DNA of 64,000 bases from Lentzea tibetensis (GTDB taxonomy: Bacteria > Actinomycetota > Actinomycetes > Mycobacteriales > Pseudonocardiaceae), in assembly GCF_007845675.1 (NCBI RefSeq), contig NZ_VOBR01000001.1, positions 372,001 to 436,000 of the forward strand, read 5' to 3'. Every line of letters begins with the position of its first letter. Position 1 is the stretch's first letter. Below, piece after piece: positions 40,878 through 63,803 of this stretch. Position numbers and translations under genes: made by a program. The notes beneath the pieces were generated by a model. The model searched no databases. It worked only from the letters and a program-made list of their open reading frames with translations, and was not told the DNA's origin.

Positions 40878-41791
40878 CGGGTCCGCCGATCGGCGAGCAG
40901 GCTGAGCCCGAGCGTGAACGCGACGATCATCCCAGCCGGCGCGAGCACCGCCCACGACTGCAACAACAGACCCTGGCGGTTGTGCGAGATGGCGACCGCC
41001 CAGTCCGCCGCCGCCGGGCTGAGCCCGAGCCCGAGGAAGTTGGCCGACGCCACCAGGAACACCGCCAGCGCCACCCGCGTGCCCACGTCCGCCTTGAGCG
41101 GTCCGAGCACGCTCCGGCCGATGAATCCGACTCGCGCCAGCGACTCCCCCTGCAGCCACATGGCTTCGACCACCGGACTGCTGGCGGCGTCGAGCGCCGC
41201 GGCGCGCACCAGCCGCGCGACGGTCGGCACGTTCAGCACCGCCACCGCCAGCACGACCGCTTCGGGACGCCACACGACGACCACGCTGATCACCAGGAGG
41301 GAGGGCATCGGGAGCAGCACGTCCAGCGGTCGCATCAGCACCTCGTCGAGGACGCGGTTGGACGCCGCCGCGAGCCCGATCGCGCCGCCCACCAGGTATG
41401 CCAGCGCGACCGCGCCCACCGCCACGCCGAGCGTGCCGCCGCCTCGCAGGAGTTGGGTGAGCACGTCGCGGCCGAGGCCGTCGGTACCGAGCAGGCCGTC
41501 GGCCGCGTAGGGCGGGCCCGGTGGTGGGTGCAGGTTTGTTGCTACGGCTGGACCGAAAACGGCGACGCACACCGGGACTGTCAGCAGCAGCCATGCGAGC
41601 ACGGCGCCAAGGCGCACTGCCGGTTGAGCTGCACTCCGGAGCCCATACTTGTCAGGGGTCGCCGCTAGGCTCGGATTCGGGGGGTCGTGATCTCCCGCTC
41701 GGGCAGGAGCACCCCCCGAATCGAGCCTACTCGGCACCACCGACAGTTCCGTCGCCTCCGTCGCCTCAGACGGCTTAGGCTCGCGGATCAT
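40874..41791 (-). CDS. ABC transporter permease, DppC-like
   Basis: The 305-residue protein has an unusual hydrophilic N-terminal extension of about 60 residues (MIREPKPSEATEATELSVV...). Six helices follow, including AVLAWLLLTVPVCVAVFGPAV. The DGLLGTDGLGRDVLTQLLRGG signature is DppC-type and the EAA loop is ALDAASSPVVEAMWLQG. The ATG overlaps the first permease stop (ATGA). A long inverted repeat lies inside the extension (separate entry). Confidence 0.88.
   Translation of the reverse strand: MIREPKPSEATEATELSVVPSRLDSGGAPARAGDHDPPNPSLAATPDKYGLRSAAQPAVRLGAVLAWLLLTVPVCVAVFGPAVATNLHPPPGPPYAADGLLGTDGLGRDVLTQLLRGGGTLGVAVGAVALAYLVGGAIGLAAASNRVLDEVLMRPLDVLLPMPSLLVISVVVVWRPEAVVLAVAVLNVPTVARLVRAAALDAASSPVVEAMWLQGESLARVGFIGRSVLGPLKADVGTRVALAVFLVASANFLGLGLSPAAADWAVAISHNRQGLLLQSWAVLAPAGMIVAFTLGLSLLADRRTR
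41668..41727. repeat. Large imperfect inverted repeat inside the DppC-like N-terminal extension
   Basis: The left arm (41668-41685, GGCTCGGATTCGGGGGGT) and right arm (41711-41727, ACCCCCCGAATCGAGCC) pair over 17 bases with one bulged G around a 25-base loop. It lies within the coding extension of the second permease. It could be an inserted REP-like element or an intra-operon attenuator that lowers expression of the distal genes. Confidence 0.6.
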
Positions 41792-42708
41792 CGGGCCACC
41801 TGCCTGCGGGGCACGAGCCGGTCGCAGACGAGATCGGCGACCAGGTTGATCAGCAGCGCCGCCACCGCCAAGAACAGGGTGATGCCCTGCACGACGGGCA
41901 CGTCACGCGACCGCACCGCCGCCACGAGCTCGGTGGCCAGGCCGGGTATCGCGAACAGCGCCTCGACCACCAGCACCCCACCGAGCAGCGCGTCGCCGGT
42001 GCGGGCCAGCTCCTGCACCGCGGGGACGGCGGCGTTCGGCAGGATGTGCCGCAGCAGCAACGGAACCGGCCGCACCCCGAAGCGGCGGGCTTGGACCACG
42101 TAGTCGGCGGACGCGGTGGCCACCATCCCGGCGCGGACCTGGCGCGACAGCAGGCACACCGACCGGCCGAGCAGCACGAGCACCGGCAGCACCAGCACCG
42201 CGGGCGACGCGGACATCCAGGTCGCGGGCAGCCAGTCCAGCCACAGCGAGAACACGGCGATCAGGACCACCGCGAGCACGAAGTCCGGGATCGCGCTCAG
42301 CCCGACGGTCACCACGGTGATCAGCCGGTCCCAGCGACCGCCTGCCCGCGCGCCCGCCACGCCGCCCAGCGTCACCGCGAGCGGGATGACCACCAGGAGC
42401 GTGGACAGCGTCAGCAACGCGGTCATGCCGACGCTGGTCCCGATGACGGACGTGACGGGTCGTCCGCTCACCAGTGACGTCCCCAGGTCGCCGCGCACAA
42501 CCCCGCCCAGCCACGCCGCGAAGCGCTCGACGGGTGGTGCGTCGAGGCCCAACCGCGCACGAAGGGCGGACACCTCGGCCGCGGACGCGTGCTCGGCGAA
42601 CCGGACGTCGGCCGCGTCGCCGGGGAGCAGGCCGGTCAGCGCGAACACCAGCACCGCGAGCACGGCCAGTTGCACGAAACCCAGCGCCAGGCGCCGAACC
42701 ACGTACAT
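41788..42708 (-). CDS. ABC transporter permease, DppB-like
   Basis: The protein of about 306 residues begins MYVVRRLALGFVQLAVLAVLVF. It has the periplasmic loop RLGLDAPPVERFAAWLGGVVRGDLGTSLVSGRPV and the EAA-type loop ADYVVQARRFGVRPVPLLLRHILPN, standard for DppB/NikB. Start ATG 42708 shares one base with the binding-protein stop (TGATG). With the DppC partner it forms the channel for a metal-chelate or peptide. Confidence 0.9.
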   Translation of the reverse strand: MYVVRRLALGFVQLAVLAVLVFALTGLLPGDAADVRFAEHASAAEVSALRARLGLDAPPVERFAAWLGGVVRGDLGTSLVSGRPVTSVIGTSVGMTALLTLSTLLVVIPLAVTLGGVAGARAGGRWDRLITVVTVGLSAIPDFVLAVVLIAVFSLWLDWLPATWMSASPAVLVLPVLVLLGRSVCLLSRQVRAGMVATASADYVVQARRFGVRPVPLLLRHILPNAAVPAVQELARTGDALLGGVLVVEALFAIPGLATELVAAVRSRDVPVVQGITLFLAVAALLINLVADLVCDRLVPRRQVAR

Positions 42709-44192
42709 CAGGCGAACGACACGCGGTCGAAGCGGGCCCAGTTCAGGGTGTTCGGCGGCGCGGGCACGACACCGCGCACCGACGGCGCCACCGCGTTGAT
42801 CCAGTTCGGGTGGCCCCACGCGATCAGGCCGCCCTCGTCGTGCAGGATGCGTTGCAGTGCGCCGTACTGAGCCGTCCGCGTCGACGGGTCGACCACGGCC
42901 GAGGCCGCGGCGAACGCGGCGTCGAAGTCGGGGCGCTTCCACGCCGTCGCGTTGAAGGCGGACGACGACAGCAGGCGTTGCGTCAGGTACTCGGGGATGG
43001 GCATGGCGCCCGAGCGGTGACTGCCGAGCGCACCGGTCGTCAGCTGGTCCTTGAAGTACGTCTCGGCGGGCCCGTTCACCACGTCGACCCGCAGTCCGGC
43101 CTCGCCCGCCTGCTCGGCGAAGAGGGTCGCGGCCTCGACGAAACCCGGTGAGGCGGACGAGGTGTAGAGCTCCAGCGGCGTGTTGAGCGCGCCCGCCTTG
43201 CGCAGCAGGGAGCGCGCCTCGTCGACGTCGCGCGGGCGTTGCGGCAGGTCCGGGTAGTAGCGGTAGCCCTTCCCGAACAGGTCGTTGCCGACCACGCCGC
43301 GCCCGGCGAGCACCACGTCGACCATGCGCTGCCGGTCGGCGAGCAGCTTGAGCGCGCGGATCACGTCCGGCGCGACCTGGTCGGTCTTCACCGCGATGGC
43401 GTGAGTCGTGCAGCCGGGTGTCTCGATGATCTGCACGGACCCGGCCGCACGCGCGAACGTCGGGGTCATGTCGTGGGCGTAGTCGGCCTGGCCGCCGCGC
43501 ACCGCGTTGCCGCGCGCGTCGGTGTCGGCCGACAGCACGTGCAGCTCGTCGACCAGGGGCGCGCCCTCCCAGTGCTCGGCGAACCGGCGCGCGACGAGCT
43601 CGCGGCCGGGCGTGAACGACCCGAAGCGGAACGGGCCGGTGCCGACCGGGGAGCCGGGGTCGAAACCCGCGCGGACGACGGCGGTGCCTGCCACGGCGAG
43701 CAGCGCGGGCAGTTCCGCTGCGGGTCGCGAGGTCACCAGTTCGACCGTGCGGGGATCGACGGCCCGGCACCGGCCGAGGTCGAGGACGGACAGCGACGCG
43801 CGGCCGATGCGGCCGGGCACCGCCGGATCCAGCACGCGCGCCAGGCTGAACAGCACGTCGTCCGCGGTGAGCGTCGCGCCGTCGTGGAACAGCGCCTCAC
43901 GCAGCCGAATTCGCCACACCGTCGCGTCCGAAGTGGACTCGAAGTCCGACGCGAGCCGCGGCACGGGCGCGAGGTCGTCACCCAGCTCGAAGAGCTTGTC
44001 GAACATCGCCTTGTGCCTGGCCTGGTCGACGTACAGGTTCTGCGCGTGCGGGTCGAGCGTCTCCTTCGCGCCGCCGCCTGCGAAGACCGCGCGGAACACG
44101 CCGCCCTGCCCCTTGTCCGGCGAAGCGCACCCCGACAACAGGGCGGCACCCGACAACGCGAGGAAGCCGCGGCGGGTCAGGGCGTGGTTCAT
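42708..44192 (-). CDS. ABC substrate-binding lipoprotein, SBP_bac_5 family
   Basis: The 494-residue protein has a twin-arginine start and lipobox (LTRRGFLALSGAALLSGCAS, lipid Cys near residue 22). The family features ETLDPHAQNLYVDQARHKAMFDKLFE and LREALFHDGATLTADDVLFSLARVLDP are present. NikA, CntA and oligopeptide receptors share this fold. GGGAGGA precedes the ATG by six bases. It is the first gene of the operon, directly behind a promoter with a Zur-like box, so a zinc-chelate ligand is the favoured guess. Confidence 0.9.
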   Translation of the reverse strand: MNHALTRRGFLALSGAALLSGCASPDKGQGGVFRAVFAGGGAKETLDPHAQNLYVDQARHKAMFDKLFELGDDLAPVPRLASDFESTSDATVWRIRLREALFHDGATLTADDVLFSLARVLDPAVPGRIGRASLSVLDLGRCRAVDPRTVELVTSRPAAELPALLAVAGTAVVRAGFDPGSPVGTGPFRFGSFTPGRELVARRFAEHWEGAPLVDELHVLSADTDARGNAVRGGQADYAHDMTPTFARAAGSVQIIETPGCTTHAIAVKTDQVAPDVIRALKLLADRQRMVDVVLAGRGVVGNDLFGKGYRYYPDLPQRPRDVDEARSLLRKAGALNTPLELYTSSASPGFVEAATLFAEQAGEAGLRVDVVNGPAETYFKDQLTTGALGSHRSGAMPIPEYLTQRLLSSSAFNATAWKRPDFDAAFAAASAVVDPSTRTAQYGALQRILHDEGGLIAWGHPNWINAVAPSVRGVVPAPPNTLNWARFDRVSFA

Positions 44193-52984: not shown

Positions 52985-53006
52985 GAATACGCCTGGAGGC
53001 GAATTC
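52985..53006 (+). promoter_or_regulatory. Island inverted repeat, copy a
   Basis: Arms GAATACGCCT and AGGCGAATTC separated by GG, a nearly perfect dyad. It ends 53 bases before the ATG of the 67-residue membrane protein that precedes the first OppB-like permease. It is one of six related sites between 52.9 and 61.1 kb and the most symmetrical. Confidence 0.7.
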
Positions 53007-53059
53007 CCCTGTCGGCACACCGAGCGGAGGCTCATCGTGTCGAAAGGGAGTTGAGCGTC

Positions 53060-53263
53060 ATGGCAACGATCACGCAGTCGAAGTCCGTGCAGTTCTACCA
53101 ATTCCTCGTGGCGGTGCTCGGAGTCGCGCTCGCTGCCGCGACCGCGATGGCGATCTACTTCGCCGTCCAGCGCACGACCGAGGTGGTTCCGCAGGACGAC
53201 CACGTCACCGTCGCACCAGCGAGTCCGGGGCCGAACTGCTCCCGGCCACTCGTTCCGTGCTGA
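53060..53263 (+). CDS. Small single-helix membrane protein before the OppB-like permease
   Basis: The 67-residue protein starts at ATG 53060 after AAGGGAG. It has one transmembrane helix (QFLVAVLGVALAAATAMAIYFAV) and a C-terminal outer tail with two Cys (PNCSRPLVPC). It ends seven bases before the permease start, so the two are co-translated under inverted repeat a. No family recognised; an accessory subunit is possible. Confidence 0.65.
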   Translation: MATITQSKSVQFYQFLVAVLGVALAAATAMAIYFAVQRTTEVVPQDDHVTVAPASPGPNCSRPLVPC

Positions 53264-53270
53264 CCACGTC

Positions 53271-54269
53271 GTGGTCGCGTATCTGATCCGTCGTCTGTTG
53301 CTGGCCGTCGGCACGTTGCTGGTCGGCAGTTTCCTGTCGTTCCTGCTGGTCGCCTCCGCGGGCAACCCACTCGCCGAACTGCGCCTGCGGCCGGGAGCTA
53401 CCGAGGCGCAGATTCGTGCCCTGGAGGCCGAACTCGGCGCGGACGGGCCGGTCGTCACGCGGTACTGGACGTGGCTGACTGGCTTCGTCCGAGGCGACTG
53501 GGGCCGGAGCATCGCACTGACCCAGGCGCGGGCCGAGGTCTACCCTGCGGTGATGGAAGCGGTGTCCATCACCGCTCGCCTCGTCGCCGGCGCGGTGGTC
53601 CTGGCGCTCCTGCTGGGCGTGCTGGTGGGCGTGCTGCAAGCGGTCGCCCAGTACTCGATCTTCGACTACGTCGCGACCGGGCTCGCATACATGATGTTCT
53701 CGATACCGCTCTTCTGCGTCACAGTGGTGGTCAAGACCTACGGGATCAAGGTCAACGACCTGCTCGAGTTCGTCGGCATGGGCCGATGGATCACTACGGC
53801 GGGTTCACCGAACACCGGATTCACCGGGACCGCGGTGGACATGGTCTACAAGTACACCGGCACGCTCCTGCTGCCGACTGTCAGCCTCGTGCTGATCAGC
53901 TTCGCGGGGTACAGCCGGTTCCAGCGCGCGTCCATGCTAGAGGTGCTGAACTCCGACTACGTGCGCACCGCCAAGGCGAAGGGGATCTCCCAGTCGAGGG
54001 TCGTCGTGCGGCACGCGCTGCGCAACGCGCTGATCCCCGTGTTCACGATGTTCTCGATGGACTTCAGCGGGTTCCTCGGTGGAGCGATCATCGTCGAGAC
54101 CGTGTTCGGTTGGCCGGGTATGGGCAACCTGCTGGTGAACTCGGTGCGGCAGTACGACCCGCACATGCTCATGGGCTGGCTGATGGTGACAGCGACCATG
54201 GTCGTGCTGTGCAACCTGGCGGCGGACCTGCTCTACGCCGTGCTCGATCCAAGGATCCGCGTCACCTAG
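53271..54269 (+). CDS. Orphan OppB/DppB-like ABC permease, copy 1
   Basis: The 332-residue protein has the DppB start VAYLIRRLLLAVGTLLVG and the loop NPLAELRLRPGATEAQI. The EAA-type segment is SDYVRTAKAKGISQSRVVVRHALRNALIP, and VFGWPGMGNLLVNSVRQYDP lies near the end. No partner permease, ATPase or binding protein is nearby. A closely similar permease of equal length is at 61749-62747. Its stop overlaps the convergent regulator remnant through a shared CTAG. Confidence 0.88.
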   Translation: MVAYLIRRLLLAVGTLLVGSFLSFLLVASAGNPLAELRLRPGATEAQIRALEAELGADGPVVTRYWTWLTGFVRGDWGRSIALTQARAEVYPAVMEAVSITARLVAGAVVLALLLGVLVGVLQAVAQYSIFDYVATGLAYMMFSIPLFCVTVVVKTYGIKVNDLLEFVGMGRWITTAGSPNTGFTGTAVDMVYKYTGTLLLPTVSLVLISFAGYSRFQRASMLEVLNSDYVRTAKAKGISQSRVVVRHALRNALIPVFTMFSMDFSGFLGGAIIVETVFGWPGMGNLLVNSVRQYDPHMLMGWLMVTATMVVLCNLAADLLYAVLDPRIRVT

Positions 54270-54478
54270 TGCGGCGCGACCACGCTCAGGTGGGACAGGA
54301 CAATCGCTGCGACCTCGGCCCGCGTACGCACGCCCGTGCGGTCGAAGATGTGTTCCATGTGCTTGCGGACGGTGCTGACCGAGATGAACAGCTCACGCGC
54401 GATGTCCGCGTTGCCGCGCCCCTGGGCCGCCAGCGTGAGCACTTCCAACTCGCGGCCGCTCAACCGAGGAACGGGCTA
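54266..54478 (-). pseudogene. Remnant of a LuxR-type regulator, DNA-binding domain only (module copy 1)
   Basis: Only the C-terminal 70 residues are left: VPRLSGRELEVLTLAAQGRG, NADIARELFISVSTVRKHME and HIFDRTGVRTRAEVAAIVLS to a TAG at 54266-54268. The sequence closely matches the intact regulator at 54591, but the N-terminal ligand or sensor part is gone upstream of about 54478. Its stop shares CTAG with the permease stop. Confidence 0.75.
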
Positions 54479-54590
54479 CCTGCACCGCTGTGGTGGTCAC
54501 GGTTCTAGTAGTACGTGCACGGTAGGAAATCCTCCCCACCAACCAGTACCCATCGAACAGTCCGCCCTCGATCCCAGGGGGCAGGATCGT

Positions 54591-55358
54591 CTAGTGAGGG
54601 TCGATCACGCTCAGGTGCGGCAGAACGAGCGCCGCGGCTTCGGCCCGCGTGCGCACACCTGTGCGGTCGAAGATGTGCTCCAGGTGTTTGCGCACGGTGC
54701 TCACAGCCACGAAGAGCTCCTGGGCGATGGCCGCATTGCTGCGCCCAGACGCCGCGAGACGCAGCACATCCAGCTCGCGGCGGCTCAGTTGCGGGACGTT
54801 TCGCCGGCGCCGTTGAGTGTCGAGGTAGACCTCGTAGAGGTGCGGCCTCAGAAGCTGGACGAGCAGCCGTTCCCGTTCTCCGAAGTCACTTCCGTCGTCA
54901 CGCCAGAGTTTCACGAACCGGCTGCATCCTGGTGCGGCGGGCAACGCGGCTTTCATGCCGTGCTTCGCCCCCTCGATGGAGTACAGCTCCGTCCATATCG
55001 GAGTCGCGTGCAGCTCGGACGTCGTGTAGAAGTCCGACCATTTGACCACGGCGCTGAGGCTGCCGCCGTTGTTGTGGAAGTCGCATGGCAGGAAACCCCG
55101 TGATAGCTCCCAAGAAGGATCGTCCGCGTCGTCGAAGTCGACTCCGTAGAAGCGGTCACCGTCGGCCGCGCCTTGGAACGTCAACGTGTTCGGTCGTCGA
55201 AGGTCCAGATCGCAGAAGTTGACCGCATCGCACCCGATCAGGTCGCGGAGCCCGTCCAGTACCGCCCAAGGCACCCCAGCCGTCGGCTCGTCATTGCGGC
55301 CCGCGTCGATGATCTCCATCAGGGCGCGAAGATCCTTCTCCGTCAGGGAATCAGCCAT
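54591..55358 (-). CDS. LuxR-type regulator with novel N-terminal domain (module copy 2)
   Basis: The 255-residue protein has an N-terminal domain of about 180 residues (MADSLTEKDLRALMEIIDAG; GVPWAVLDGLRDLIGCDAVN; VVKWSDFYTTSELHATPIW) and the LuxR helix-turn-helix (QLSRRELDVLRLAASGRSNA...VSTVRKHLEHIFDRTGVRTR). No receiver or autoinducer-binding signature is recognised; size and layout fit a LuxR solo. Its ATG lies within a 46-codon ORF that starts upstream, so it may be translationally coupled. A short trace of a permease 3' end (CTCGATCC...) faces its stop. Confidence 0.85.
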   Translation of the reverse strand: MADSLTEKDLRALMEIIDAGRNDEPTAGVPWAVLDGLRDLIGCDAVNFCDLDLRRPNTLTFQGAADGDRFYGVDFDDADDPSWELSRGFLPCDFHNNGGSLSAVVKWSDFYTTSELHATPIWTELYSIEGAKHGMKAALPAAPGCSRFVKLWRDDGSDFGERERLLVQLLRPHLYEVYLDTQRRRRNVPQLSRRELDVLRLAASGRSNAAIAQELFVAVSTVRKHLEHIFDRTGVRTRAEAAALVLPHLSVIDPH

Positions 55359-55483
55359 CGTGCTTCACCGTCGGTCCACCACTGCGGATCGCCGCACTCG
55401 AGTGCGGTACAACTACATGTGAGGGAGTCCTGCCAAGGCAGCCGGTACGGGTCGTTGCGTTGGTGGACGTTCTGATCCAGCAC
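55343..55483 (-). CDS. 46-residue Cys/Trp-rich ORF overlapping the regulator start
   Basis: GTG 55483 is nine bases from GGAGG and opens VLDQNVHQRNDPYRLPWQDS. The C-terminal half holds three closely spaced Cys (TCSCTALEC) and four Trp in all, ending ARWLIP. Its TGA lies 13 bases inside the regulator gene, suggesting translational coupling. It could be a leader, a signal peptide precursor or a RiPP-like precursor. No export or maturation gene is beside it, so any function is speculative. Confidence 0.45.
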   Translation of the reverse strand: MLDQNVHQRNDPYRLPWQDSLTCSCTALECGDPQWWTDGEARWLIP

Positions 55484-55693
55484 GTGTCTTCGCCTCCCTC
55501 CGCCTCTCGGTGTTGAACCGACGTGCGAGGCGAATCGAACTCCGTGAAGTCGACCGCAGCGCGACTGATGGCTTCGCGTCGTTCGGCTCTTGACTCCTTC
55601 CTCTACGAACGTCACGAGAGAGGGTGAGGGGCCCTGTGGGCGGTGTGGGCCATCGGCAACTCTCCTGACGTTACGCCGCAGCGCACCAGACAG

Positions 55694-55714
55694 GAATACG
55701 CCTAGAAGCGAACG
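55694..55714 (+). promoter_or_regulatory. Island inverted repeat, copy b
   Basis: GAATACGCCT followed by AG and AAGCGAACG: the left arm is perfect, the right arm has one internal change and a diverged end. A 26-bp perfect palindrome begins three bases later. It stands upstream of the small secreted ORF at 55840 on the plus strand. Confidence 0.6.
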
Positions 55715-55716
55715 TC

Positions 55717-55742
55717 GGAGCAACACTCGCGAGTGTTGCTCC
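55717..55742. repeat. Perfect 26-bp palindrome next to repeat b
   Basis: GGAGCAACACTCG is followed directly by its reverse complement. A related shorter dyad (GAACAAC...GTTGTTC, 59912-59934) occurs downstream of repeat e, so the pair of elements recurs. It may be a second protein-binding site or a hairpin in the leader RNA. Confidence 0.6.
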
Positions 55743-55839
55743 GGAAGAACATCTGGGCAAGGCCAACGTGACTCTATGGCCGTGGTGGTCACGCTTCGCC
55801 GCCAGGACCGATCCATGAAGCAGTATGATCCGGCGAAAT

Positions 55840-56097
55840 TCCATGGGAAACAGGAAAACGGTCCGCCTCGCGGCGATCGCCGCAGTTGCCGTTCTGACGC
55901 GACCCGTCATTCCTACCTACACCGTCCACAATGCACTCGGCGACCACGAGACCGCCTCGCGCCTCAGCCCTTCGCAATCAGGGGATCCCATGGCACACAA
56001 CGCCCAACGACCACTACTCGACCTGTCAAGCGCAGATGGCAGCCCTGCACCACTGTCATCTGCGAGCGATGCGAGAGCGTTAAGCGCCATGGTGTGA
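55840..56097 (+). CDS. Small secreted ORF with operator and terminator, unknown
   Basis: The ORF of 85 residues starts MGNRKTVRLAAIAAVAVL, a basic and then hydrophobic signal-like segment. It continues with a polar Ser/Ala/Pro-rich part without a fold I recognise. Repeat b and the palindrome lie upstream, and a strong stem-loop starts 14 bases after the stop, so a transcription unit is likely. The short, plain mature part suggests it may be a decayed relative of the secreted protein at 59182. Confidence 0.4.
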   Translation, partial: SMGNRKTVRLAAIAAVAVLTRPVIPTYTVHNALGDHETASRLSPSQSGDPMAHNAQRPLLDLSSADGSPAPLSSASDARALSAMV

Positions 56098-56110
56098 GCC
56101 CAAGGTAGTT

Positions 56111-56138
56111 CGACGGTGCGCGCATGGGCGCACCGTCG
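56111..56138 (+). terminator. Stem-loop terminator after the small secreted ORF
   Basis: CGACGGTGCGC (56111-56121) pairs with GCGCACCGTCG (56128-56138) around a 6-base loop, 14 bases after the stop at 56097. No T-run follows, as is common in actinomycetes. Confidence 0.6.
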
Positions 56139-56279
56139 CAGTGTCTACCTCTGGCCACAGCAACACGTGGTGCCGGTGACCACTAGCGCCCATATCGGCG
56201 TCAAGTATCTCGCCATGGCCTGCCGCGAACGCCGTGCTCGCGTGAACAAGTCGGTGCTTCCCAAACTGAGGTGAGCTTG

Positions 56280-57518
56280 CTACCGGGCCGGCCGGAAGTG
56301 GTGTCTGATGGTCCAGTCGGACACCTGGTGCCCCAACTTGTTCCCGTCGATCATCGCTTTGCGGAAGTGGATGCCGAGCCAGATCCTGGCGTTCATCGTC
56401 TCCACGTCGAGCTCGCGAGCGGTCCGGAAGTGCTTGACCGTCGAGGTGACCGAGGAAGACACTTCCAGATCAAGGGATCTGCTCCCGAAGAGGTGGCCGA
56501 ACGTGTTCGACGCCGCTCCGCTGATGCAGGCATGTCCACTTGTGTAGTCGGGGTATGGCGGAGTCTGTACCAGTGGCGTCCAGCTGGCGTCGGTCGTCCG
56601 GATCGCCGTGATCGGGCGCCAGTAAGCGTAGTCGTACTTCGCGCGCCAGCAGGAGACCAAGGCATCTGCCGTGGCGGTGTTGAGCAAGACGAAGGCCCGC
56701 GCGCTGTGCAGGATGCCGAGTCCACGACGAGTCACCTGGTCGCGCAGAGCCACCTGGTACTGCAGCACCACATTGGCGTTCCAGAACAGCGCGGTTTCGG
56801 TCTGCTGTGCGGTGCGCGACGATCCCTCCTTCGCACCGTAGGCCTTCACCTCCGCGAGGTCCCGCGCGTAGGCCTTGGTGTGGAGCGCGTCCGGGCCGGG
56901 CAGCCGGATCTGCGTCGGGGAGCGAAGTGCCAGAGGTGTGACGAAACCCAGCCAGGGCACGGCCATCGGGGCGAACGCGTCCGGGGTTGGGCGCCACACG
57001 CCTGGGTTGGGGGCCACGTCCAGTGACACGTTCGCGTCACGGCCGTCGTTCTGCCGCAACCGGATCAACGTGGCCGCCGCGATCTCGCCGACCCGCTTGC
57101 CCTGCTCCAGTCCGGCACCGGGTGGAATACCGGCCAGGGAAGCCGCGTAGTCGGTGGAGAGTTTCTCTCCGGACGCGGGGAAGTAGTGGCTCAGCACCCG
57201 ATACGCGGCGGTGGCCGCCGCGGCCTCGGACGAGGCTCTGGGGTGGGGACGTGGCTGTTTCGTGTACGGCTCGTAACCGCCCTTGATCGTCACTACCGCG
57301 TCGTACACAGCGATGGAGACGAACCCGAAGTACAGCCCTGACGCCGGAATCGGCGTCGCGTTCTCGGTGAAGATGGTGCGAGCGGCGATCGTATTCCACT
57401 CGGTGATTACAGCCGGGTTGGCCATGGTGACCTGTGATTCGGCGTGACTCGGCGCGACCGAGAAGCCGACAGCGGTGAGGCTGGCGATGGCAAGAATTCT
57501 CGATAATCGAACAGGCAT
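56280..57518 (-). CDS. Secreted vanadium-haloperoxidase/PAP2-like protein
   Basis: The 412-residue protein has a signal peptide (LSRILAIASLTAVGFSVAPSHA). The PAP2-type active-site series is KYDYAYWRPITAIR (Lys, Arg), YTSGHACISGAASNTFGHLFG (Ser-Gly-His) and ARIWLGIHFRKAMIDGNKLG (second Arg/His region). The family binds vanadate and oxidises halides with peroxide, or acts as a phosphatase. ATG 57518 has GGAGG six bases before it, and inverted repeat d lies 54 bases upstream, linking it to the island regulon. Confidence 0.85.
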   Translation of the reverse strand: MPVRLSRILAIASLTAVGFSVAPSHAESQVTMANPAVITEWNTIAARTIFTENATPIPASGLYFGFVSIAVYDAVVTIKGGYEPYTKQPRPHPRASSEAAAATAAYRVLSHYFPASGEKLSTDYAASLAGIPPGAGLEQGKRVGEIAAATLIRLRQNDGRDANVSLDVAPNPGVWRPTPDAFAPMAVPWLGFVTPLALRSPTQIRLPGPDALHTKAYARDLAEVKAYGAKEGSSRTAQQTETALFWNANVVLQYQVALRDQVTRRGLGILHSARAFVLLNTATADALVSCWRAKYDYAYWRPITAIRTTDASWTPLVQTPPYPDYTSGHACISGAASNTFGHLFGSRSLDLEVSSSVTSTVKHFRTARELDVETMNARIWLGIHFRKAMIDGNKLGHQVSDWTIRHHFRPAR

Positions 57519-57572
57519 AGTTCCTCCAGTTAGAGTCCGCGCACCAGCATGCACCCGCATGAAGAGCAGGGC

Positions 57573-57593
57573 TATTCGCCTGAAGGCGTATCC
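57573..57593 (-). promoter_or_regulatory. Island inverted repeat, copy d
   Basis: Read on the minus strand: GATACGCCT, two spacer bases, AGGCGAATAG. It ends 54 bases before the haloperoxidase ATG at 57518, the same spacing as copy a before its gene. Confidence 0.7.
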
Positions 57594-57803
57594 ATAGACT
57601 GTCCTCAGTGGACAAAGGGTGCCGGAGATCCGTGATGGTTACATAGCGGTGTCCGCTGCGGCACAAGAGCGCGTTGCTTCGCCGACAGCTGACCGGCCCG
57701 ATCTGCTACGAGCCCGCAGACCGATTCTGGTTCGCAGCCCTGTCACGACTGAGACACTTTCGCGCTAGCACGAGATCTTCCCGGTCTCTCACGCTGGCAT
57801 CGC

Positions 57804-57922
57804 AAGTTCATCAAGTACGACCCGCACGTGCTGACAGGCTGGCTGAGGGTCTCCGCGACGATGGTCGTCCTGTGAGTCGCCTGCCTCCTGCACGTCACCA
57901 TCGATCCACGGTCCACATCACC
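57804..57922 (+). pseudogene. 3' remnant of an OppB-like permease (module copy 3)
   Basis: The frame reads KFIKYDPHVLTGWLRVSATM and VVL, then a TGA where the intact copies have Cys or Phe, then VACLLHVTIDPR. This matches the last 40 residues of the permeases at 53271 and 61749 (RQYDPHMLMGWLMVTATMVV). Everything upstream is gone. It faces the intact regulator at 57918. Confidence 0.75.
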
Positions 57923-58664
57923 TGACGTGCGGCAACACCAATGCGGCCGCCGCGGCCCGCGAGCGCGCGCCAGTGCGGTCGAAGAGGTGTTTCAGGTGCT
58001 TGCGGACCGTGCTGACGGCGATGAACAACTCATCTGCGATGGACGCATTGCTCTGCCCTTGCGCGGCCAGCAGCAGGACGTCGAGCTCCCGTCGGCTCAG
58101 CTGGGGCACACCGCCCCGCTTTCGTTGCACGTCCAGGTAGATCTCGTACAGGTGCGGCCGGAGGAGCTGGAGCACCATGCGGTCGCGCTCGGTGAAGTCG
58201 GCGCCATCGAATCGGTCGATCAGGATGCACCGCTTCCGGCCGGGCGCGGTCGCCAGTCGCACCAACATCCGGTGCACCGGACGCGAGCGCATGTCGATGA
58301 CGTACGGCGTGGCCGCCAGTTGTGGCTGGGTGTAGAAGTCCGAGTACATGACGATACTTCTCGTGTCACCAGTGCGGTCGGCGTAGCCGCACGGAAGAAA
58401 ATCGCGCCACAGCACCCAGTACGGATTGTCGGCGTCTCCAACGTTCTGCTCGAGCTCGCGCTCGCCGACCTGCACCCACTGGTCAGTGAGAAAGACCTTC
58501 TGCGGCGCGTCGACCTCCACAAAACCGACGGAGTCGCATGGAATCAACCTGCTCAACCCGTCGAGCACCGCCCACGGCATCACGCCGTCCGGTTGGGCGC
58601 GCCGCCCTTCCTCGACGAACGTCACGAGTGAGCGACGATCCCTGTCCGAAAGGAGTTCTGTCAT
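57918..58664 (-). CDS. LuxR-type regulator with novel N-terminal domain (module copy 3)
   Basis: The 248-residue protein is homologous to the copy at 54591 along its length: LVTFVEEGRRAQPDGVMPWA, VLDGLSRLIPCDSVGFVEVD, MYSDFYTQPQLAATPYV and the helix-turn-helix QLSRRELDVLLLAAQGQSNASIADELFIAVSTVRKHLKH. ATG 58664 has GGAGG five bases before it. Inverted repeat c is 46 bases upstream, suggesting autoregulation or regulation by a paralogue. Confidence 0.85.
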   Translation of the reverse strand: MTELLSDRDRRSLVTFVEEGRRAQPDGVMPWAVLDGLSRLIPCDSVGFVEVDAPQKVFLTDQWVQVGERELEQNVGDADNPYWVLWRDFLPCGYADRTGDTRSIVMYSDFYTQPQLAATPYVIDMRSRPVHRMLVRLATAPGRKRCILIDRFDGADFTERDRMVLQLLRPHLYEIYLDVQRKRGGVPQLSRRELDVLLLAAQGQSNASIADELFIAVSTVRKHLKHLFDRTGARSRAAAAALVLPHVR

Positions 58665-58710
58665 CACGGCCTCCTGCTAGACCAACGCTACGCCGCGCGA
58701 CATCGCACAG

Positions 58711-58730
58711 GAATACACCTCAAGGCGAAG
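58711..58730 (+). promoter_or_regulatory. Island inverted repeat, copy c
   Basis: GAATACACCT, two spacer bases, AGGCGAAG: one change in the left arm. It lies 46 bases upstream of the regulator ATG at 58664 (reading left). Confidence 0.6.
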
Positions 58731-58739
58731 ACTCGGGTC

Positions 58740-59117
58740 GGCGTCCAGAGAGTTGTAGGCCCACGGTCGCGCATGGATCCCCACACTGGGCTCACTCGAG
58801 GCTGGGCCGGCCCTGTGGAGTTCGATCACCATCGCCGCCGCGATGGGTCGACCGCAGACCGACTCCTGTATATGCGACGACGTACCGGTGATTCTTATGC
58901 GGCCTGGATATGGGTTCATCGTCTTCACGTACTGCGATCCCGTGCGCGGTCGCAGATGGCGCTAGAACGCCTCTCGCCACCACCGAATGCGATGTGGCCG
59001 CCCTGCAGGTGACCGAACAGTAAGCCCAAGACCGTCGAGCAGTTCGGCTCGGAGAAGACACAGGTGCGGATGCCATGTTGGCTAGCACCAGGCAACACCA
59101 ACTGGCGCGCCGAAGGT
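58740..59117. other. Stretch without a supportable gene
   Basis: Nothing convincing is seen in these 380 bases. A 79-codon plus-strand ORF (58773-59012) has no ribosome site and biased composition. Confidence 0.4.
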
Positions 59118-59149
59118 ATCGGGGCGCACCAGACCAGGTGCGCCCCGAT
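59118..59149 (-). terminator. Stem-loop terminator of the secreted acidic protein gene
   Basis: ATCGGGGCGCACC (59118-59130) and GGTGCGCCCCGAT (59137-59149) make a perfect 13-bp stem with a 6-base loop, 32 bases past the stop at 59182 on the minus strand. Confidence 0.7.
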
Positions 59150-59181
59150 CGTCGGACCGGCGGTCGGTCAGGAATCAAAGG

Positions 59182-59793
59182 TCAGGAGATGACAATGTGC
59201 ACGAAGGCGTTCACGGAGTTCCGGCACTGACCGCTGGTGCCATCGTCGTGCGAGTAGTAGCCGTTGTCGGAGTAGCCGTCGTCCTCGTAGCCCAGGATCA
59301 GGCTGCCGCCCCGGCCACCGACCACGAACTGCCTGCCGACGACGTTCTGCAACCGGACCAGGTGCGCGGTCGCCCCTGGGATGGTGATCAGGCCGTGGTA
59401 GAGGTCGTTGTCAGAGGCAGGATTTACATATCGCTTCCAGGTGCGCCCGTGCCCGCCGGTCTGCACGCAGCCTCCCGCGGTGACCGTGACGTGGTCGCCA
59501 CGAAGGAACGTCAAGGGGTACGCCATCTGGGCCTGGTTCACTACCGGTTCAGTGACCGTGCAGTCGATCGGCAGCGTCGCACCGAAACAACCAGGGCTCA
59601 ACTTCAATGCAGCTGGCAGCACTTCGGGCGTCCGGCGAACGTTGCGGTCGCCCGGCGACCCAGGCTGAGCAGCATCTGCTCTGGCGGTCGATCCTGGATT
59701 GGGGGTACCCGCGGCCGAGGTCGTGGTAGCCGGGCCGATCGAGGCGATCGCTGCCGTTGCGACGACAGCGGCAATCGTGATGCGCATTCTCAT
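59182..59793 (-). CDS. Secreted protein with acidic Asp/Tyr-rich C-terminus, possibly lectin-like
   Basis: ATG 59793 gives a precursor of 203 residues with a signal peptide (MRMRITIAAVVATAAIASIG...TSA) and a Pro/Ala linker. The domain after it carries GDHVTVTAGGCVQTGGHG, LQNVVGRQFVVGGRGG and a DDGYSDNGYYSHDDGTSGQC region. Those Asp residues, followed by NAFVHIVIS, resemble calcium-binding lectins of the PA-IL type, but I am not sure. Repeat e and a second dyad lie upstream; a strong terminator follows. Confidence 0.6.
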   Translation of the reverse strand: MRMRITIAAVVATAAIASIGPATTTSAAGTPNPGSTARADAAQPGSPGDRNVRRTPEVLPAALKLSPGCFGATLPIDCTVTEPVVNQAQMAYPLTFLRGDHVTVTAGGCVQTGGHGRTWKRYVNPASDNDLYHGLITIPGATAHLVRLQNVVGRQFVVGGRGGSLILGYEDDGYSDNGYYSHDDGTSGQCRNSVNAFVHIVIS

Positions 59794-59911
59794 GTGAAAT
59801 TCCCTCGGTTGGACATGACGAATAGACCAGAATCGTTGCTTCAACCACATCGGGGAACGCTCGAAGATCCTTCGGATTGCCTGCGGGTTCGTTCTCGTCC
59901 GTGTCGGCGAC

Positions 59912-59934
59912 GAACAACACTCGTGGCGTTGTTC
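59912..59934. repeat. Dyad related to the palindrome beside repeat b
   Basis: GAACAAC and GTTGTTC flank ACTCGTGGC; the left part shares AACACTCG with the 26-bp palindrome at 55717. It lies between repeat e and the secreted protein gene. Confidence 0.45.
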
Positions 59935-59995
59935 TTGATGTTGTTGCGTTGCACTCCCCGCGGTACGAGGGTGCATGCAGAGACATGGAGAGGTC

Positions 59996-60015
59996 TATTC
60001 GCTTCAAGGCGTATT
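59996..60015 (-). promoter_or_regulatory. Island inverted repeat, copy e
   Basis: On the minus strand: AATACGCCT, two spacer bases, AAGCGAATAG. It is about 200 bases upstream of the secreted protein at 59793, farther than copies a, d and f, with the second dyad in between. Confidence 0.6.
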
Positions 60016-60054
60016 TCCGCATGCCGTCAAGTAACGTAGGTGACGAGAAGGGTG

Positions 60055-60118
60055 TCGAGGGGCGCTATCGGATGCTCGAAACCCTGCGCGCACATGCTGC
60101 GGAACACACCCTCCGGGG
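60055..60118 (+). pseudogene. Fragment of an ATPase-type (AfsR/LuxR-like) regulator
   Basis: About 20 codons read EGRYRMLETLRAHAAEHTLR, the hallmark of the region after the NB-ARC domain in AfsR/LAL-type regulators. It is cut off on both sides and abuts the transposase remnant, evidence of deletion during transposition. Confidence 0.5.
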
Positions 60119-60540
60119 CGCTTGCGGCGCGCTCTTGATCATCCGCAGGTCCTCGGCCTCGACGACGGTGTCGAATGTCTCGCCGTATTTGCCGTCGCGG
60201 TCGCGCAGCAGGAAACGTGGGGACTCCATACGCAGCGCGAGGTCGGCCGCGAGATTCCTGGCCTGCTGCACTGTCCAGTCGCGCGTCGGATGCGTGGTGA
60301 CGCTGGTGATGTGCAGGCGTCTGGTGCCGTGTTCGAGAAACGCCAGTGCATACAGGCGTTTGCCGAGCGCGGTGTCGATGTGGAAGAAGTCTGCGGCGAT
60401 GATGCTTTTGGCTTGGGCGGTGAGCAACTGGCGCCAGGTGGGCCGCAGCGACGTGGTGCCGGATTGATGCCTGCAGCGTGCAGGATCTCCCAGACGATCG
60501 AGGCGTCGATACGATGTCCGAGCCGGGCCACTCACCGTGG
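60110..60540 (-). pseudogene. Remnant of an integrase-core (rve) transposase
   Basis: Pieces in two frames: ARLGHRIDASIVWEILHAAGIN then, after a frameshift near 60450, PTWRQLLTAQAKSIIAADFF, ALGKRLYALAFLEHGTRRLH, WTVQQARNLAADLALRMES and FLLRDRDGKYGETFDTVVEA. Both N- and C-terminal parts are missing. Related to, but different from, the copy at 62957. Confidence 0.8.
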
Positions 60541-60742
60541 ATCCGCCGATGTCCTCACCGCGGATTGTCTCTGGCACGCCGCACAACCACAGCCGAACGC
60601 GTTCCTCAACGCTTCAACCCGGTCCAGACCTCAGTCCTGGTGCTGAGCGGCACGGGCGCGGACCCAGGGCCGCTCAGCGGCCTCGTCCCCGGCTACTACC
60701 GGCCGGGCCGCGGCTTCCTCTCCACCCCGTCGTGCCGCCAGG

Positions 60743-60976
60743 TCATCCAGGTCGCTTGCTGAAGGTCCGCCGTCTGACCCGCGTGCGGCGTCTCCGGACC
60801 CGACGTCGCACGCGGTCACGGGCCCACCCGACCGCAACCACCACGAGGTACGCGGCGAACCCCACAAGCAGGCCGATGTTGCGGGCGTCCGGTGCCGCCG
60901 CGGCATAGGCGTTGTAAATGGCGATACCGACTGGAATCGCGGTTGCTGCGGCGAGGTTCCTCGTCTTGCTGTCCAT
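60743..60976 (-). CDS. 77-residue two-helix membrane protein with basic tail
   Basis: ATG 60976 follows GGAGG closely (GGAGGAACG), nearly the same leader as the haloperoxidase gene (GGAGGAACT). The protein MDSKTRNLAAATAIPVGIAI... has two helices (ending YNAYAAA and IGLLVGFAAYLVVVAVGW) and a strongly Arg-rich cytoplasmic tail of about 25 residues. Inverted repeat f is 57 bases upstream. Unknown; could be a holin-like or accessory membrane peptide. Confidence 0.65.
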   Translation of the reverse strand: MDSKTRNLAAATAIPVGIAIYNAYAAAAPDARNIGLLVGFAAYLVVVAVGWARDRVRRRVRRRRTRVRRRTFSKRPG

Positions 60977-61033
60977 CGTTCCTCCAATCGTTCTGCGGTG
61001 CCATAAGCCTGCATCGCTGGGCCGGTCGGGGGT

Positions 61034-61053
61034 ATTCGCATCAAGGCGTATTC
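61034..61053. promoter_or_regulatory. Island inverted repeat, copy f
   Basis: On the minus strand: GAATACGCCT, two spacer bases, ATGCGAATAC. It sits in the divergent region, 57 bases before the 77-residue membrane protein and 50 bases before the regulator remnant start at 61104, so it could serve both. Confidence 0.7.
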
Positions 61054-61103
61054 CGCCCCCGGCTGCGGACGTATCATCAACAGATGATCCGGAGGGGCGC
61101 CTC

Positions 61104-61752
61104 GTGACAGACCTGCTGGTGGAGAAGGATCGACCTGCCCGCGCGGGCCACGCTGACCGGTCAAGACAGCGACAACCAGGACCGGTCAATCCTGATAAAC
61201 GAGCCGTACGACCCAAATGATCCGTATTGGCAGTACTACCAGGACTTCCTGCCGTGCGTGTATCACGAACGCTCGAACGACTTGAGTGAAGCGATCAAGT
61301 TCTCGGACTTCTACACGCGGCGGGAACTGGATGCACACCCGCTGTGGGCCGAGATGTTCAACTGTGAAGGCGATGCACGGCATTGCATGCTGATCTCCAT
61401 GCCAACCGCACCTGGCCGAACTCGACGACTTCTCCTGTGGCGCAACAACGGACGCGACTTCAACGAACGCGATCGTCTCCTGATGAGGGTGTTGCGACCA
61501 CATGTGTACGAGGTCTACCTGGATTCGCAACGACGCCTGAACAAGGTCCCCAAGCTCAGCAAGCGCGAACTCGAGGTGCTGCAACTGGCCGCACAGGGTA
61601 GGAGCAACGCGGAGATCGCCCACGAGCTCTTCGTCGCGGTCAGCACCGTCCGCAAGCACATGGAGAACATCTTCGACCGCACCGGGGTCCGCAGCCGGGC
61701 TGCCGCGGCCGCACTGGTGCTGCCGCACCTGAGCGTGCCGGACGTTCGCTAG
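61104..61752 (+). pseudogene. LuxR-type regulator with an internal deletion (module copy 4)
   Basis: GTG 61104 after GGAGGGG opens VTDLLVEKD, matching the start of the other copies. About 40 residues are then missing and the frame has shifted. It resumes as LPARATLTGQDSDNQDRSIL, DPNDPYWQYYQDFLPCVYHE, FSDFYTRRELDAHPLW and an intact helix-turn-helix (KLSKRELEVLQLAAQGRSNAEIAHELFVAVSTVRKHMEN) to a TAG sharing CTAG with the permease stop. A shorter ORF from GTG 61258 could still make the C-terminal part. Confidence 0.75.
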
Positions 61753-62747
61753 GAAATCCTGATCCTCGGGTCGAGGACCCCGTAGAAGACGTCGGCCATC
61801 AGGTTGAAGAGCAGGATCACCGCACCGGCCACCATGAGCCAGCCCATGAGCATGTGCGGGTCGTACTGGCGTATCGACTTGATCAGCAACGAGCCCATGC
61901 CCGGCCAGCCGAACACCGTCTCGACCAGGAAGGCACCGGTCAGCACGGTGCCGAAATCCAGCGAGAACGCCGTCGTCACCGGGATCAAGGAGTTCCGGAA
62001 CACGTGCCGGACGATCACCCGGCTCTGTGACAGGCCTTTCGCCCGCGCGGTTCGGACGTGGTCGTCGTTCATGACTTCGAGCATGGACGAGCGTTGGAAC
62101 CGGCTGTACGCCGCGAAGCCGATCAGTGCCAGGCTCAACGTGGGCAACAGGAATGTGCCCGTGTACTTGAAGACGACTTCGCCGAAGCTCCCGGTGAATC
62201 CCGCGCTGGGCGCGCCGGCCGTGCTGAGCCAGCGGTCGATGCCGACGACCTCGAGGAAGTCGTTGAACCGGACGCCGAAGTTCTTGACCACCACAGCGAC
62301 GCACACCACTGGCATGGAGAACAGAACGTATGCCGTGCCGGTGGCGATGTAGTCGAAGATCGAGTACGGCTTCACGGCCGCCAGCACTCCCACGACCACA
62401 CCGATGAGCAGCGCCAAGATCTCGGCACCGACAACCAGTCGCACGGTGATCGACATGGCGTCGATAACCGCCGTGAACACGTCGCCACGGGCTTCGATCA
62501 ACGCGACGCTGCGACCCCAGTCGCCCTGCATGAATCCCACCAGCCAGTTCCAATAGCGCACCAGGACGGGGTCGTCGAGGCCGAATTCGTGCGCGAGCAC
62601 GTCCATCTGTTGCTGCGAGGCACCCGGCCGCATGCGCAGCTCAGCGAGCGGGTTGCCGGAGGCGGCGACCACGCAGAAGCTGATGAAGCTGCTGACCACG
62701 AGCGTGCCGACAGAGAGCAACAATCGGCGGACGAGATACCTGACCAC
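61749..62747 (-). CDS. Orphan OppB/DppB-like ABC permease, copy 4
   Basis: The 332-residue protein is collinear with the permease at 53271: VRYLVRRLLLSVGTLVVSSF, SGNPLAELRMRPGASQQQMD, the EAA-type segment DDHVRTARAKGLSQSRVIVRHVFRNSLIP and VFGWPGMGSLLIKSIRQYDP. GTG 62747 has GGAG seven bases upstream. No other ABC components are adjacent. Module orientation is reversed relative to copies 1-3. Confidence 0.88.
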   Translation of the reverse strand: MVRYLVRRLLLSVGTLVVSSFISFCVVAASGNPLAELRMRPGASQQQMDVLAHEFGLDDPVLVRYWNWLVGFMQGDWGRSVALIEARGDVFTAVIDAMSITVRLVVGAEILALLIGVVVGVLAAVKPYSIFDYIATGTAYVLFSMPVVCVAVVVKNFGVRFNDFLEVVGIDRWLSTAGAPSAGFTGSFGEVVFKYTGTFLLPTLSLALIGFAAYSRFQRSSMLEVMNDDHVRTARAKGLSQSRVIVRHVFRNSLIPVTTAFSLDFGTVLTGAFLVETVFGWPGMGSLLIKSIRQYDPHMLMGWLMVAGAVILLFNLMADVFYGVLDPRIRIS

Positions 62748-62876: not shown

Positions 62877-62956
62877 TTCAGAAGCCAGCGCAGTGCCTCC
62901 CGCACGGGTCGTGAACCGCGTTCGCAGCCTGGTCGTTGTCTCAGGCGGATGGCACC

Positions 62957-63803
62957 ATGATCAGTCTCTGGCACCGCAACCTTCTCCATCGCCGATACGC
63001 GCGGGCATCCCGCCCGAAGCGACCAGGCCGGCCGCCCACCATCCGCAGCATCCGAGCTCTCGTCCTGCGGCTCGCCCGTGAGAACCCCAGTTGGGGTTAC
63101 CGCCGCATCCACGGCGAACTCGCCACACTCGCGATCAAGGTCGCTCCCTCGACAGTCTGGGAGATCCTCAAGACCAACGACATCGAACCGGCACCCCGCC
63201 GCCATCAGGTCACCTGGGCGGCCTTCCTACGCAGCCAGGCACACACCATCCTCGCGGCCGACTTCTTCGAAACCAGAACCCTGACCGGAGCACGGCTGTA
63301 CGTCCTCACCGTCATCGAACACGCCACCCGCCGCATTCACGTCCTCGGCGCTACCACCCACCACCGCAGCCTGGACCACACAGCAAGCCCGCAACCTGCT
63401 CATGGACCTCCAGGACGCGGGCATCACCGCGAAGTACTTCATCCGAGATCGCGACAGGTACACCACGCCCTTCGACACCGTCCTCGCCGACAACGAAATC
63501 ACGATCATCAAAGCCGGGATCCGCATCACTCGGATGAACGCGATCATGGAGCGCTGGATCCGCACCTGCCGAGCCGAACTCCTCGACCGAATCCTCATCC
63601 CCAACCGGTCACACCTACTGCACGCACTGCGCGACTACGAAACCTCCTACAACCAGCACCGACCCCACCGCGCACTAGAACGCCGCAGCACCACAACGCC
63701 CGCTGCCCTACCGGTCACCGATCCGGGCAGACTCGCTCATCTCGACATCACACGGCATGACCGACTCGGCGGCATACTCCACGAGTACCACGACGCCGCC
63801 TGA
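62957..63803 (+). mobile_element. Integrase-core transposase with a frameshift
   Basis: The first part reads MISLWHRNLLHRRYARASRP, RPPTIRSIRALVLRLARENP, WGYRRIHGELATLAIKVAPS, AHTILAADFFETRTLTGARL and LTVIEHATRRIHVLGATTHH. Near 63370 the frame shifts. It continues as QQARNLLMDLQDAGITAKYF, IRDRDRYTTPFDTVLADNEI, AIMERWIRTCRAELLDRILI and YNQHRPHRALERRS to a TGA at 63803. The usual N-terminal 60 or so residues are absent, so the element is probably dead. No clear terminal inverted repeats are recognised. Confidence 0.85.

Follow-up and report, generated by a model that had tools for sequence, protein, structure and literature searches.

A 21-bp lux-box-like repeat in Lentzea tibetensis is the probable operator of a clade of LuxR-type regulators

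INTRODUCTION

Which regulator, if any, reads the inverted repeat that stands six times within about 8 kb (positions 52985 to 61053) of a 64,000-nucleotide stretch of the Lentzea tibetensis genome (contig NZ_VOBR01000001.1, 372,001 to 436,000)? The original prediction, made from the letters of this stretch, here called the window, took the repeat for a lux-box-like operator and the genes around it, LuxR-type regulators among them, for a local regulon. LuxR-type regulators of no known signal seem to be common in actinobacteria; to our knowledge, few of them have a known operator. Here, the repeat and the island of genes around it are compared with the whole genome and with the genomes of the family (391, this one included), and the in silico results are placed beside known systems.

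RESULTS

Six directional copies confined to one island

All six predicted copies are present, site f beginning at 61033 rather than at 61034 (Table 1). Read towards the regulator genes, the motif is TATTCGCCTNNAGGCGTATTC, 21 bases long, and its opposite strand is the motif as first described. The copies match GAATACGCCTNNAGGCGAATA with one to three mismatches, for a chance expectation of 0.00 in 100 dinucleotide shuffles. The genome (9,363,882 bases in 105 contigs, 98.74% complete) holds no further match to GAATACGCCTNNAGGCGAATA at up to three mismatches, and the reversed control pattern gave 0; the looser pattern TTCGCNTNNANGNGTATYY, at up to one mismatch, returns these six alone (reversed control, 1). 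The earlier remark that the motif was not seen elsewhere in the window therefore holds for the genome, and the case named as fatal to the regulon prediction, a motif scattered through the genome, did not arise. A generic repeat was rejected, as no copy stands elsewhere in the genome and the flanks are mostly unrelated: mean identity among the six copies is 79% over the 21 bases versus 27 to 34% in the flanks, and the only flank pairs above 50% over 20 bases are b-d (65%, regulator side) and a-d (60%, other side).

Comparison of 12 sites from six genomes resolves a 21-bp dyad with arms ATTCGCCT and AGGCGTAT, whose invariant bases are TTCGC, the T that precedes the spacer, the central G of AGGCG, and TAT. 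The dyad departs from symmetry always in the same way, by an invariant T at mirrored positions, so that each site has a direction. Site a also matches GAATACGCCTNNAGGCGAATA when read on the opposite strand.

Table 1. Operator sites, genes, gene remnants and predicted promoter elements, in window positions
Feature	Position	Strand	Remarks
Site a	52985-53005	+	1 mismatch to GAATACGCCTNNAGGCGAATA; target side faces peptide and permease genes
pep1, 67-aa one-helix peptide	53060-53263	+	ends NCSRPLVPC; ATG 54 nt after site a; model helix 8-42
perm1, orphan DppB/OppB-like ABC permease	53271-54269	+	7 bp behind pep1; Pfam BPD_transp_1 4.6e-37
LuxR-type regulator, C-terminal fragment	54266-54463	-	76-77% identical to R1 C-terminus
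R1, LuxR-type regulator, 255 aa	54591-55358	-	GerE 4.8e-14, 52.2 bits
Apparent LuxR-type N-terminal coding remnant	55588-55628	-	behind site b; resembles R2 start, judged by eye, no alignment score
Site b	55694-55714	+ for GAATACGCCTNNAGGCGAATA; regulator side on -	3 mismatches; TAACGT from base 21 after site
Secreted PAP2/vanadium-haloperoxidase-like protein, 412 aa	56280-57518	-	ATG 57518, 54 nt behind site c
Site c	57573-57593	-	1 mismatch to GAATACGCCTNNAGGCGAATA
Permease C-terminal fragment	57780-57911	+	convergent with R2
R2, LuxR-type regulator, 248 aa	57918-58664	-	GerE 1.2e-15, 57.3 bits
Predicted -10 TAGCGT, R2 promoter	58685-58690	-	position after site d
Site d	58711-58731	+ for GAATACGCCTNNAGGCGAATA; feature strand -	2 mismatches; 46 nt before R2
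Secreted Asp/Tyr-rich protein, 203 aa	59182-59793	-	202 nt behind site e
Site e	59996-60016	-	2 mismatches to GAATACGCCTNNAGGCGAATA
77-aa membrane protein	60743-60976	-	ATG 60976, 56 nt behind site f
Site f	61033-61053	- for GAATACGCCTNNAGGCGAATA; feature strand +	1 mismatch; between 77-aa gene and R3
Predicted -10 TATCAT, R3 side of site f	61072-61077	+	position after site f
R3, frame-broken LuxR-type gene	61104-61752	+	long open frame without ~50 N-terminal residues
perm2, second orphan DppB-like permease	61749-62747	-	convergent with R3

The motif accompanies one regulator clade across genomes

Outside this genome, the family set gives 43 motif matches, 4 at up to two mismatches and 39 at exactly three; the reversed control pattern gives 25 across all 391 genomes. 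All four of the closer matches adjoin a homolog of R1 and R2, namely in Saccharothrix sp. ALI-22-I (G072), Amycolatopsis vancoresmycina (G162), the genome G167, and Lentzea aerocolonigenes NBRC 13195 (G229). At exactly three mismatches only 2 of the 39 do so, in Amycolatopsis tucumanensis (G182) and at a second G229 site, which is near background. Homology was assessed by tblastn on 29 foreign loci and, in all genomes, by the positions of 10 regulator matches. Nine of the 39 belong to one repeat of the genome G358, and the remainder are near the control level. The G358 repeat is a similar palindrome, GKATTCGCCGNNAGGCGAATA, in nine scattered copies (contigs 33, 77, 110, 114, 126, 132, 140, 170, and 174); that genome gave no match to an R1/R2-type regulator, and the palindrome is possibly a different operator or a repeat.

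Counted from the regulator side, relatives of the R2 sensor domain occur in at least 8 of the 391 genomes, hence in at least 7 of the 390 others (E 1e-10; lower bounds, from at most eight candidates scored per genome). A site lies beside 5 of the 7 foreign homologs, and in G229, G072, G162, and G182 it is upstream of the gene. When one regulator-side site is taken from each of five genomes (d, G229, G072, G162, and G182; the comparison excludes b and f, the other G229 site, and G167), site identity is 81% versus 28 to 45% in the flanks. Among the best 70 protein pairs between the six site-bearing loci (about 13 to 14 kb each, real genes being told from shadow frames by eye), the regulator alone finds a counterpart in every locus; a further match, between the window and G229, is the permease. 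The recognition-helix stretch TVRKHxxHxxDRTG is common to the intact homologs with a site.

A scan of the genome and of related genomes, as originally suggested, thus leaves six copies in the island and none elsewhere in the genome, and the comparison shows a linkage of predicted operator and regulator in which the close foreign matches adjoin this LuxR-type clade in Lentzea, Saccharothrix, and Amycolatopsis. A contig scan with one short pattern, which may miss relatives, listed five loci, none beyond the pattern-search matches. More distant homologs, found with a sensor-domain profile in at least 8 genomes of a class-wide sample of 393 others (E 1e-15), have as their best site matches ones with 6 (two loci) or 7 to 9 mismatches within 3.3 to 3.6 kb, and no small Cys-tailed open reading frame (ORF) with a hydrophobic helix was seen at these loci.

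Regulators with a predicted GAF-like sensor domain

R1 and R2 are both intact and are 52.6% identical, and R2 is 69% identical to its L. aerocolonigenes homolog. GerE is the sole Pfam family above cut-off in either (gathering score, 23.5 bits). In an AlphaFold model of R2 (seven sequences; pLDDT, the predicted local distance difference test score, 76.5; residues 86 to 112 poor), the structures matched best in the PDB are those of SdiA (E 6.0e-7) and RhlR (E 7.5e-7), both LuxR receptors of quorum sensing, with CviR also among the best, TraR weaker, and GAF domains on a second comparison. The modeled regulator would therefore have the shape of a quorum-sensing receptor, a GAF-like sensor domain at the N terminus followed by a helix-turn-helix (HTH) domain. 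The sequence of the sensor domain gave nothing credible against the PDB (best E 1).

The acyl-homoserine-lactone-binding family Autoind_bind (PF03472) was found neither in R1 and R2, to E 0.1, nor in the genome, to E 0.01, in a search that matched E. coli among 14 control genomes. As no such domain was found in the genome, an acyl-homoserine-lactone ligand for R1 and R2 is unlikely. A LuxI-type synthase (PF00765) gave no match in the genome, but it gave none in the 14 control genomes either. Searches with R2 against 72,556 plasmid records and with R1 against 50,697 phage records (tblastn) returned nothing at E 1e-20, and a plasmid or phage origin was set aside.

Part of the island is decayed: R3 is frame-broken, and pieces of regulator and permease genes lie between the intact ones (Table 1). 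Repeated rounds of duplication, with later decay, would account for the damaged regulator and permease genes.

Geometry of the predicted promoters

Sites d and f lie 46 nt before the R2 ATG (58664) and 50 nt before the R3 GTG (61104), respectively; the distances to regulator starts given in the original prediction were right, and the sites named, c and f, should read d and f. On the regulator side, the hexamer TANNNT, with a background rate of 0.0013 per position, begins 17 to 21 bases after the site in six of seven cases, at base 21 in b, d, G229, and G182, base 19 in f, and base 17 in G162. If these hexamers are -10 elements, counted as -12 to -7, the predicted dyad centre falls at -43.5 in the first four, -41.5 in f, and -39.5 in G162. 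This would be the class II geometry of the lux box, from which autoactivation of the regulator through the site appears probable. By eye, the predicted regulator promoters have a poor -35 position, as would suit promoters that depend on an activator. As a consensus scan of the region found no sigma-70 promoter (0 against 1.3 expected), the -10 reading is drawn from the comparison of sites; the scan for terminator-like sites gave 4, with 5.1 expected.

On the target side, a start codon follows the site by 53 to 56 nt in 5 of the 12 cases (a 54, c 54, f 56, G162 53, and G182 56). The spacing of 53 to 57 bases originally proposed for the island is thus borne out at 54 to 56 nt, for sites a, c, and f rather than a, d, and f. 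Spacing elsewhere is 34 nt in G072, 66 nt at the second G229 site, 110 nt at b, and 202 nt at e; no clear gene stands closely behind d or the G167 site. Two palindromes with a common CAACACTCG stretch (55717-55742 and 59912-59934) lie directly behind sites b and e on this side and may form hairpins; the terminator scan did not list them.

Putative target genes and peptides with a VPC tail

Of the putative targets first assigned to the sites, the peptide gene with its permease, the haloperoxidase-like gene, and the gene of the 77-aa membrane protein begin 54 to 56 nt behind a site; the acidic protein behind e is farther away. The haloperoxidase-like protein matches Pfam PAP2 at E 2.9e-4, below the gathering score, and the Asp/Tyr-rich protein has no family match. 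The small secreted ORF assigned to site b (90 aa) is probably not a gene, its third-position GC content being 0.64 versus 0.76 to 0.91 in ten other island ORFs. Among the foreign sites, that of G072 stands before a lipoprotein-like protein of 190 aa, that of G162 before one of 158 aa in which two stretches are hydrophobic, those of G229 before a secreted protein of 184 aa and the permease, and that of G182 before a 63-aa peptide. By eye and hydropathy, most of the putative targets look secreted or membrane-bound.

The G182 peptide is 41% identical to pep1; both are 63 to 67 aa long, have one predicted helix, and end in C(S)RPxVPC. The window, seven regulator loci, and eight dpp loci, 16 in all with 304,014 bases, hold 2,461 ORFs of 30 aa or more, of which three end in VPC, namely pep1, the G182 peptide, and the secreted G229 protein (RLVPC), each from a different species. 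All three begin behind the operator, taking the first suitable ATG after the site. The tail was defined post hoc from the two peptides, so that G229 is the only independent case, with an estimated chance of about 10 in 2,461. At the DNA level, RPxVPC followed by TGA, with CGN arginine codons only, occurs eight times in eight whole genomes (reversed control, 1), and of these only pep1 and the G182 peptide lie in open frames above 50 codons. Third-position GC is 0.92 for the G182 and 0.86 for the G229 ORF; of the three VPC ORFs, automatic gene picks (300) kept pep1 only, choosing longer overlapping frames at the other two loci. With at most 15 candidates scored per genome, a profile built from pep1 and the G182 peptide finds a clear relative in at least 2 of the 391 genomes, which are its own two sources (E <1e-30); the other 59 matches listed, in 56 more genomes at E 4e-4 or weaker, were dismissed as noise.

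Orphan permeases and other neighbours

The two island permeases are 65% identical to each other. The genome's own DppB-like subunit, on contig C18, is 64% identical to perm1, as are permeases of G229 (66%) and of the genome G242 (64%). These three relatives stand in transporter gene clusters (genes named by eye; two intervening genes of the C18 cluster were not called cleanly), unlike the island copies, which are solitary: next to them neither a binding protein nor a further permease nor an ATPase was noticed, part of the island ORFs having been scanned for families. Both perm1 and perm2 keep what we take, from the sequence, to be the loop contacting the ATPase in this permease family, so that exchange of an island permease into the Dpp transporter as a subunit is possible. 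A separate cluster at 37902-44192, with genes that by eye resemble an oligopeptide-type ATP-binding cassette (ABC) transporter and pyridoxal phosphate (PLP) enzymes, holds no operator copy.

On the opposite strand beyond site e (60017-60110), TAACGT is followed by a short stretch, RYRMLETLRAHAAE, which resembles part of an AfsR-type regulator. Pieces of transposase-like genes, which we take to be of the IS3 type, show weak rve and HTH matches at 60065-60586 and 62936-63803, within the island's eastern end and past it. A structured RNA was considered and rejected: between 52500 and 63000, no Rfam family reached its gathering score.

DISCUSSION

The combination of motif, regulator, and promoter comparison makes it probable, on sequence grounds, that the repeat serves as operator for a single clade of LuxR-type regulators with a GerE HTH, encoded here by R1, R2, and decayed copies. 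A local regulon under a lux-box-like operator, as first proposed, appears to be the best reading, with sites in one orientation and mostly at a near-fixed distance from a predicted -10 element before the regulator. It can be hypothesized that a signal binds the N-terminal GAF-like domain, that the regulator would then occupy the imperfect 21-bp dyad as a dimer, and that the dimer would activate two divergent gene sets, its own gene, with the site reaching -35 in class II position, and the target side. The latter would comprise secreted or membrane proteins, including the 67-aa one-helix peptide followed by the orphan oligopeptide permease, and the outcome would be a local regulon with positive feedback. 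It is from sequence patterns that we infer binding, activation, autoregulation, and signal binding.

Several observations speak against an operator of this clade or against its proposed geometry. The nearest site upstream of R1 is 335 nt away. In G167, the homolog has lost its HTH core and has the site at its 3' end, and two homologs have no site, a distant one in G242 (38% identity) and that of Amycolatopsis sp. NBRC 101858 (G124), despite the same helix stretch; in the latter, the start-codon gap to the divergent gene, which resembles that of G162, is 27 bp. In G072, TANNNT stands at base 58, placing the dyad centre at -80.5. Sites b, d, and G229 are of common ancestry on their regulator sides and hence not independent there, and a TAACGT stands at base 16 of site e as well, although no regulator lies in that direction. 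None of the 12 sites has a TANNNT in the first 110 nt of its target side (about 1.7 expected), 7 of the 12 sites do not have the 53- to 56-nt spacing, and the first G229 site lies only 12 nt before the permease start codon.

These points bear on the alternatives to differing degrees. Activation is the likelier mode of action, in keeping with predicted regulator promoters that have a TANNNT -10 without a good -35 (by eye), as in activator-dependent promoters. The same regulators could instead act as repressors, a dimer covering -35 and shutting off its own and the divergent genes until the signal arrives; this is a variant of the favoured explanation, and the weights given to the two overlap. 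A site reaching -35 permits occlusion as well as activation, the G229 site just before the permease start is suited to repression, and the LuxR proteins CarR and CepR2 are described as repressors in the available text of one source (PMC4338825); we nonetheless consider repression unlikely. That another regulator targets the motif, with the LuxR genes as mere members of its regulon, would accommodate R1, which has no site directly upstream. It is improbable, however, given that a LuxR gene stands beside all four close matches in 390 genomes and is the one gene common to all six site-bearing loci among the best protein pairs. Least probable by far is a mobile or duplicated repeat of no regulatory role, carried along as regulator and permease genes were duplicated. 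The island does hold duplicated and decayed copies of both, and b-d and a-d have parts of their flanks in common, but all other flank pairs fall below 50%, and the site persists from genus to genus although its flanks have diverged and the divergent genes next to it differ.

The favoured reading, an operator of the LuxR-type clade, has a close parallel in LuxR and the lux box of Vibrio fischeri. The two systems share an imperfect dyad of about 20 bp before genes, a regulator with a GerE HTH and, by prediction, a GAF-like sensor fold, and likely autoregulation; the position predicted from -10 elements, -39.5 to -43.5 in six of seven regulator-side cases, would be similar as well. The island system is actinobacterial and differs in the invariant asymmetry of its operator and in that no Autoind_bind domain was found. 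We take the island operator to differ from the lux box in sequence as well. The lux box is given as 20 nt long and 42.5 upstream of the start in the available text of PMC7585371. The literature searched held no description of the island operator, papers listed with motif strings being unrelated by title and sharing a 10-mer only, and nothing, by title, on the regulator clade.

A further parallel concerns the adjoining peptide-transport gene. Should the island's own peptides be the signal, the nearest precedent in the literature consulted would be PipR, a LuxR solo of Pseudomonas sp. GM79, which needs a peptide ABC transporter and answers to plant material, peptone, and a tripeptide; in the model proposed, an imported peptide-like signal activates the regulator, which in turn activates a neighbouring gene (PMC4981722, in the text available). 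The LuxR-type genes of the island likewise adjoin peptide-transport genes. As far as that text goes, PipR is accompanied by a five-gene transporter and two peptidase genes (PMC4981722), whereas the island has lone permeases and a candidate peptide gene that shares the operator, and no peptidase was noticed among its ORFs; a complete peptide ABC transporter with peptidase genes was not found adjacent, the transporter cluster being on another contig. In Streptomyces, likewise an actinobacterium, the oligopeptide ABC transporter BldK takes up an oligopeptide that acts as a signal, although it is a complete transporter, and the available text describes no comparable LuxR operator with it (PMC11303876).

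It could be speculated that the island encodes a peptide-signal circuit on a LuxR-type receptor, with VPC-tailed precursors, Dpp uptake, and binding by the GAF-like domain. The operator would drive small membrane-anchored or secreted precursors with a C-terminal RPxVPC or RLVPC tail; the tail would be released and imported via the Dpp transporter, in which the DppB copy of the operon would replace the housekeeping subunit; and it would then bind the GAF-like domain, upon which the regulator would activate its own gene and the precursors. This circuit is suggested by the tails that the precursors share, by the operon of peptide and permease, and by the precedent of PipR, but we regard it as tentative and rather doubtful: a clear peptide relative is found in two of 391 genomes only, and the sites of G072 and G162 showed no peptide of this kind behind them.

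In conclusion, a clade of LuxR-type regulators gains a defined candidate operator and, in one genome, a putative regulon of six sites, and comparison strains are available in Lentzea aerocolonigenes, a Saccharothrix, and two Amycolatopsis. If the VPC-tailed peptides were the signal, the clade would offer a LuxR receptor with a self-made peptide ligand.

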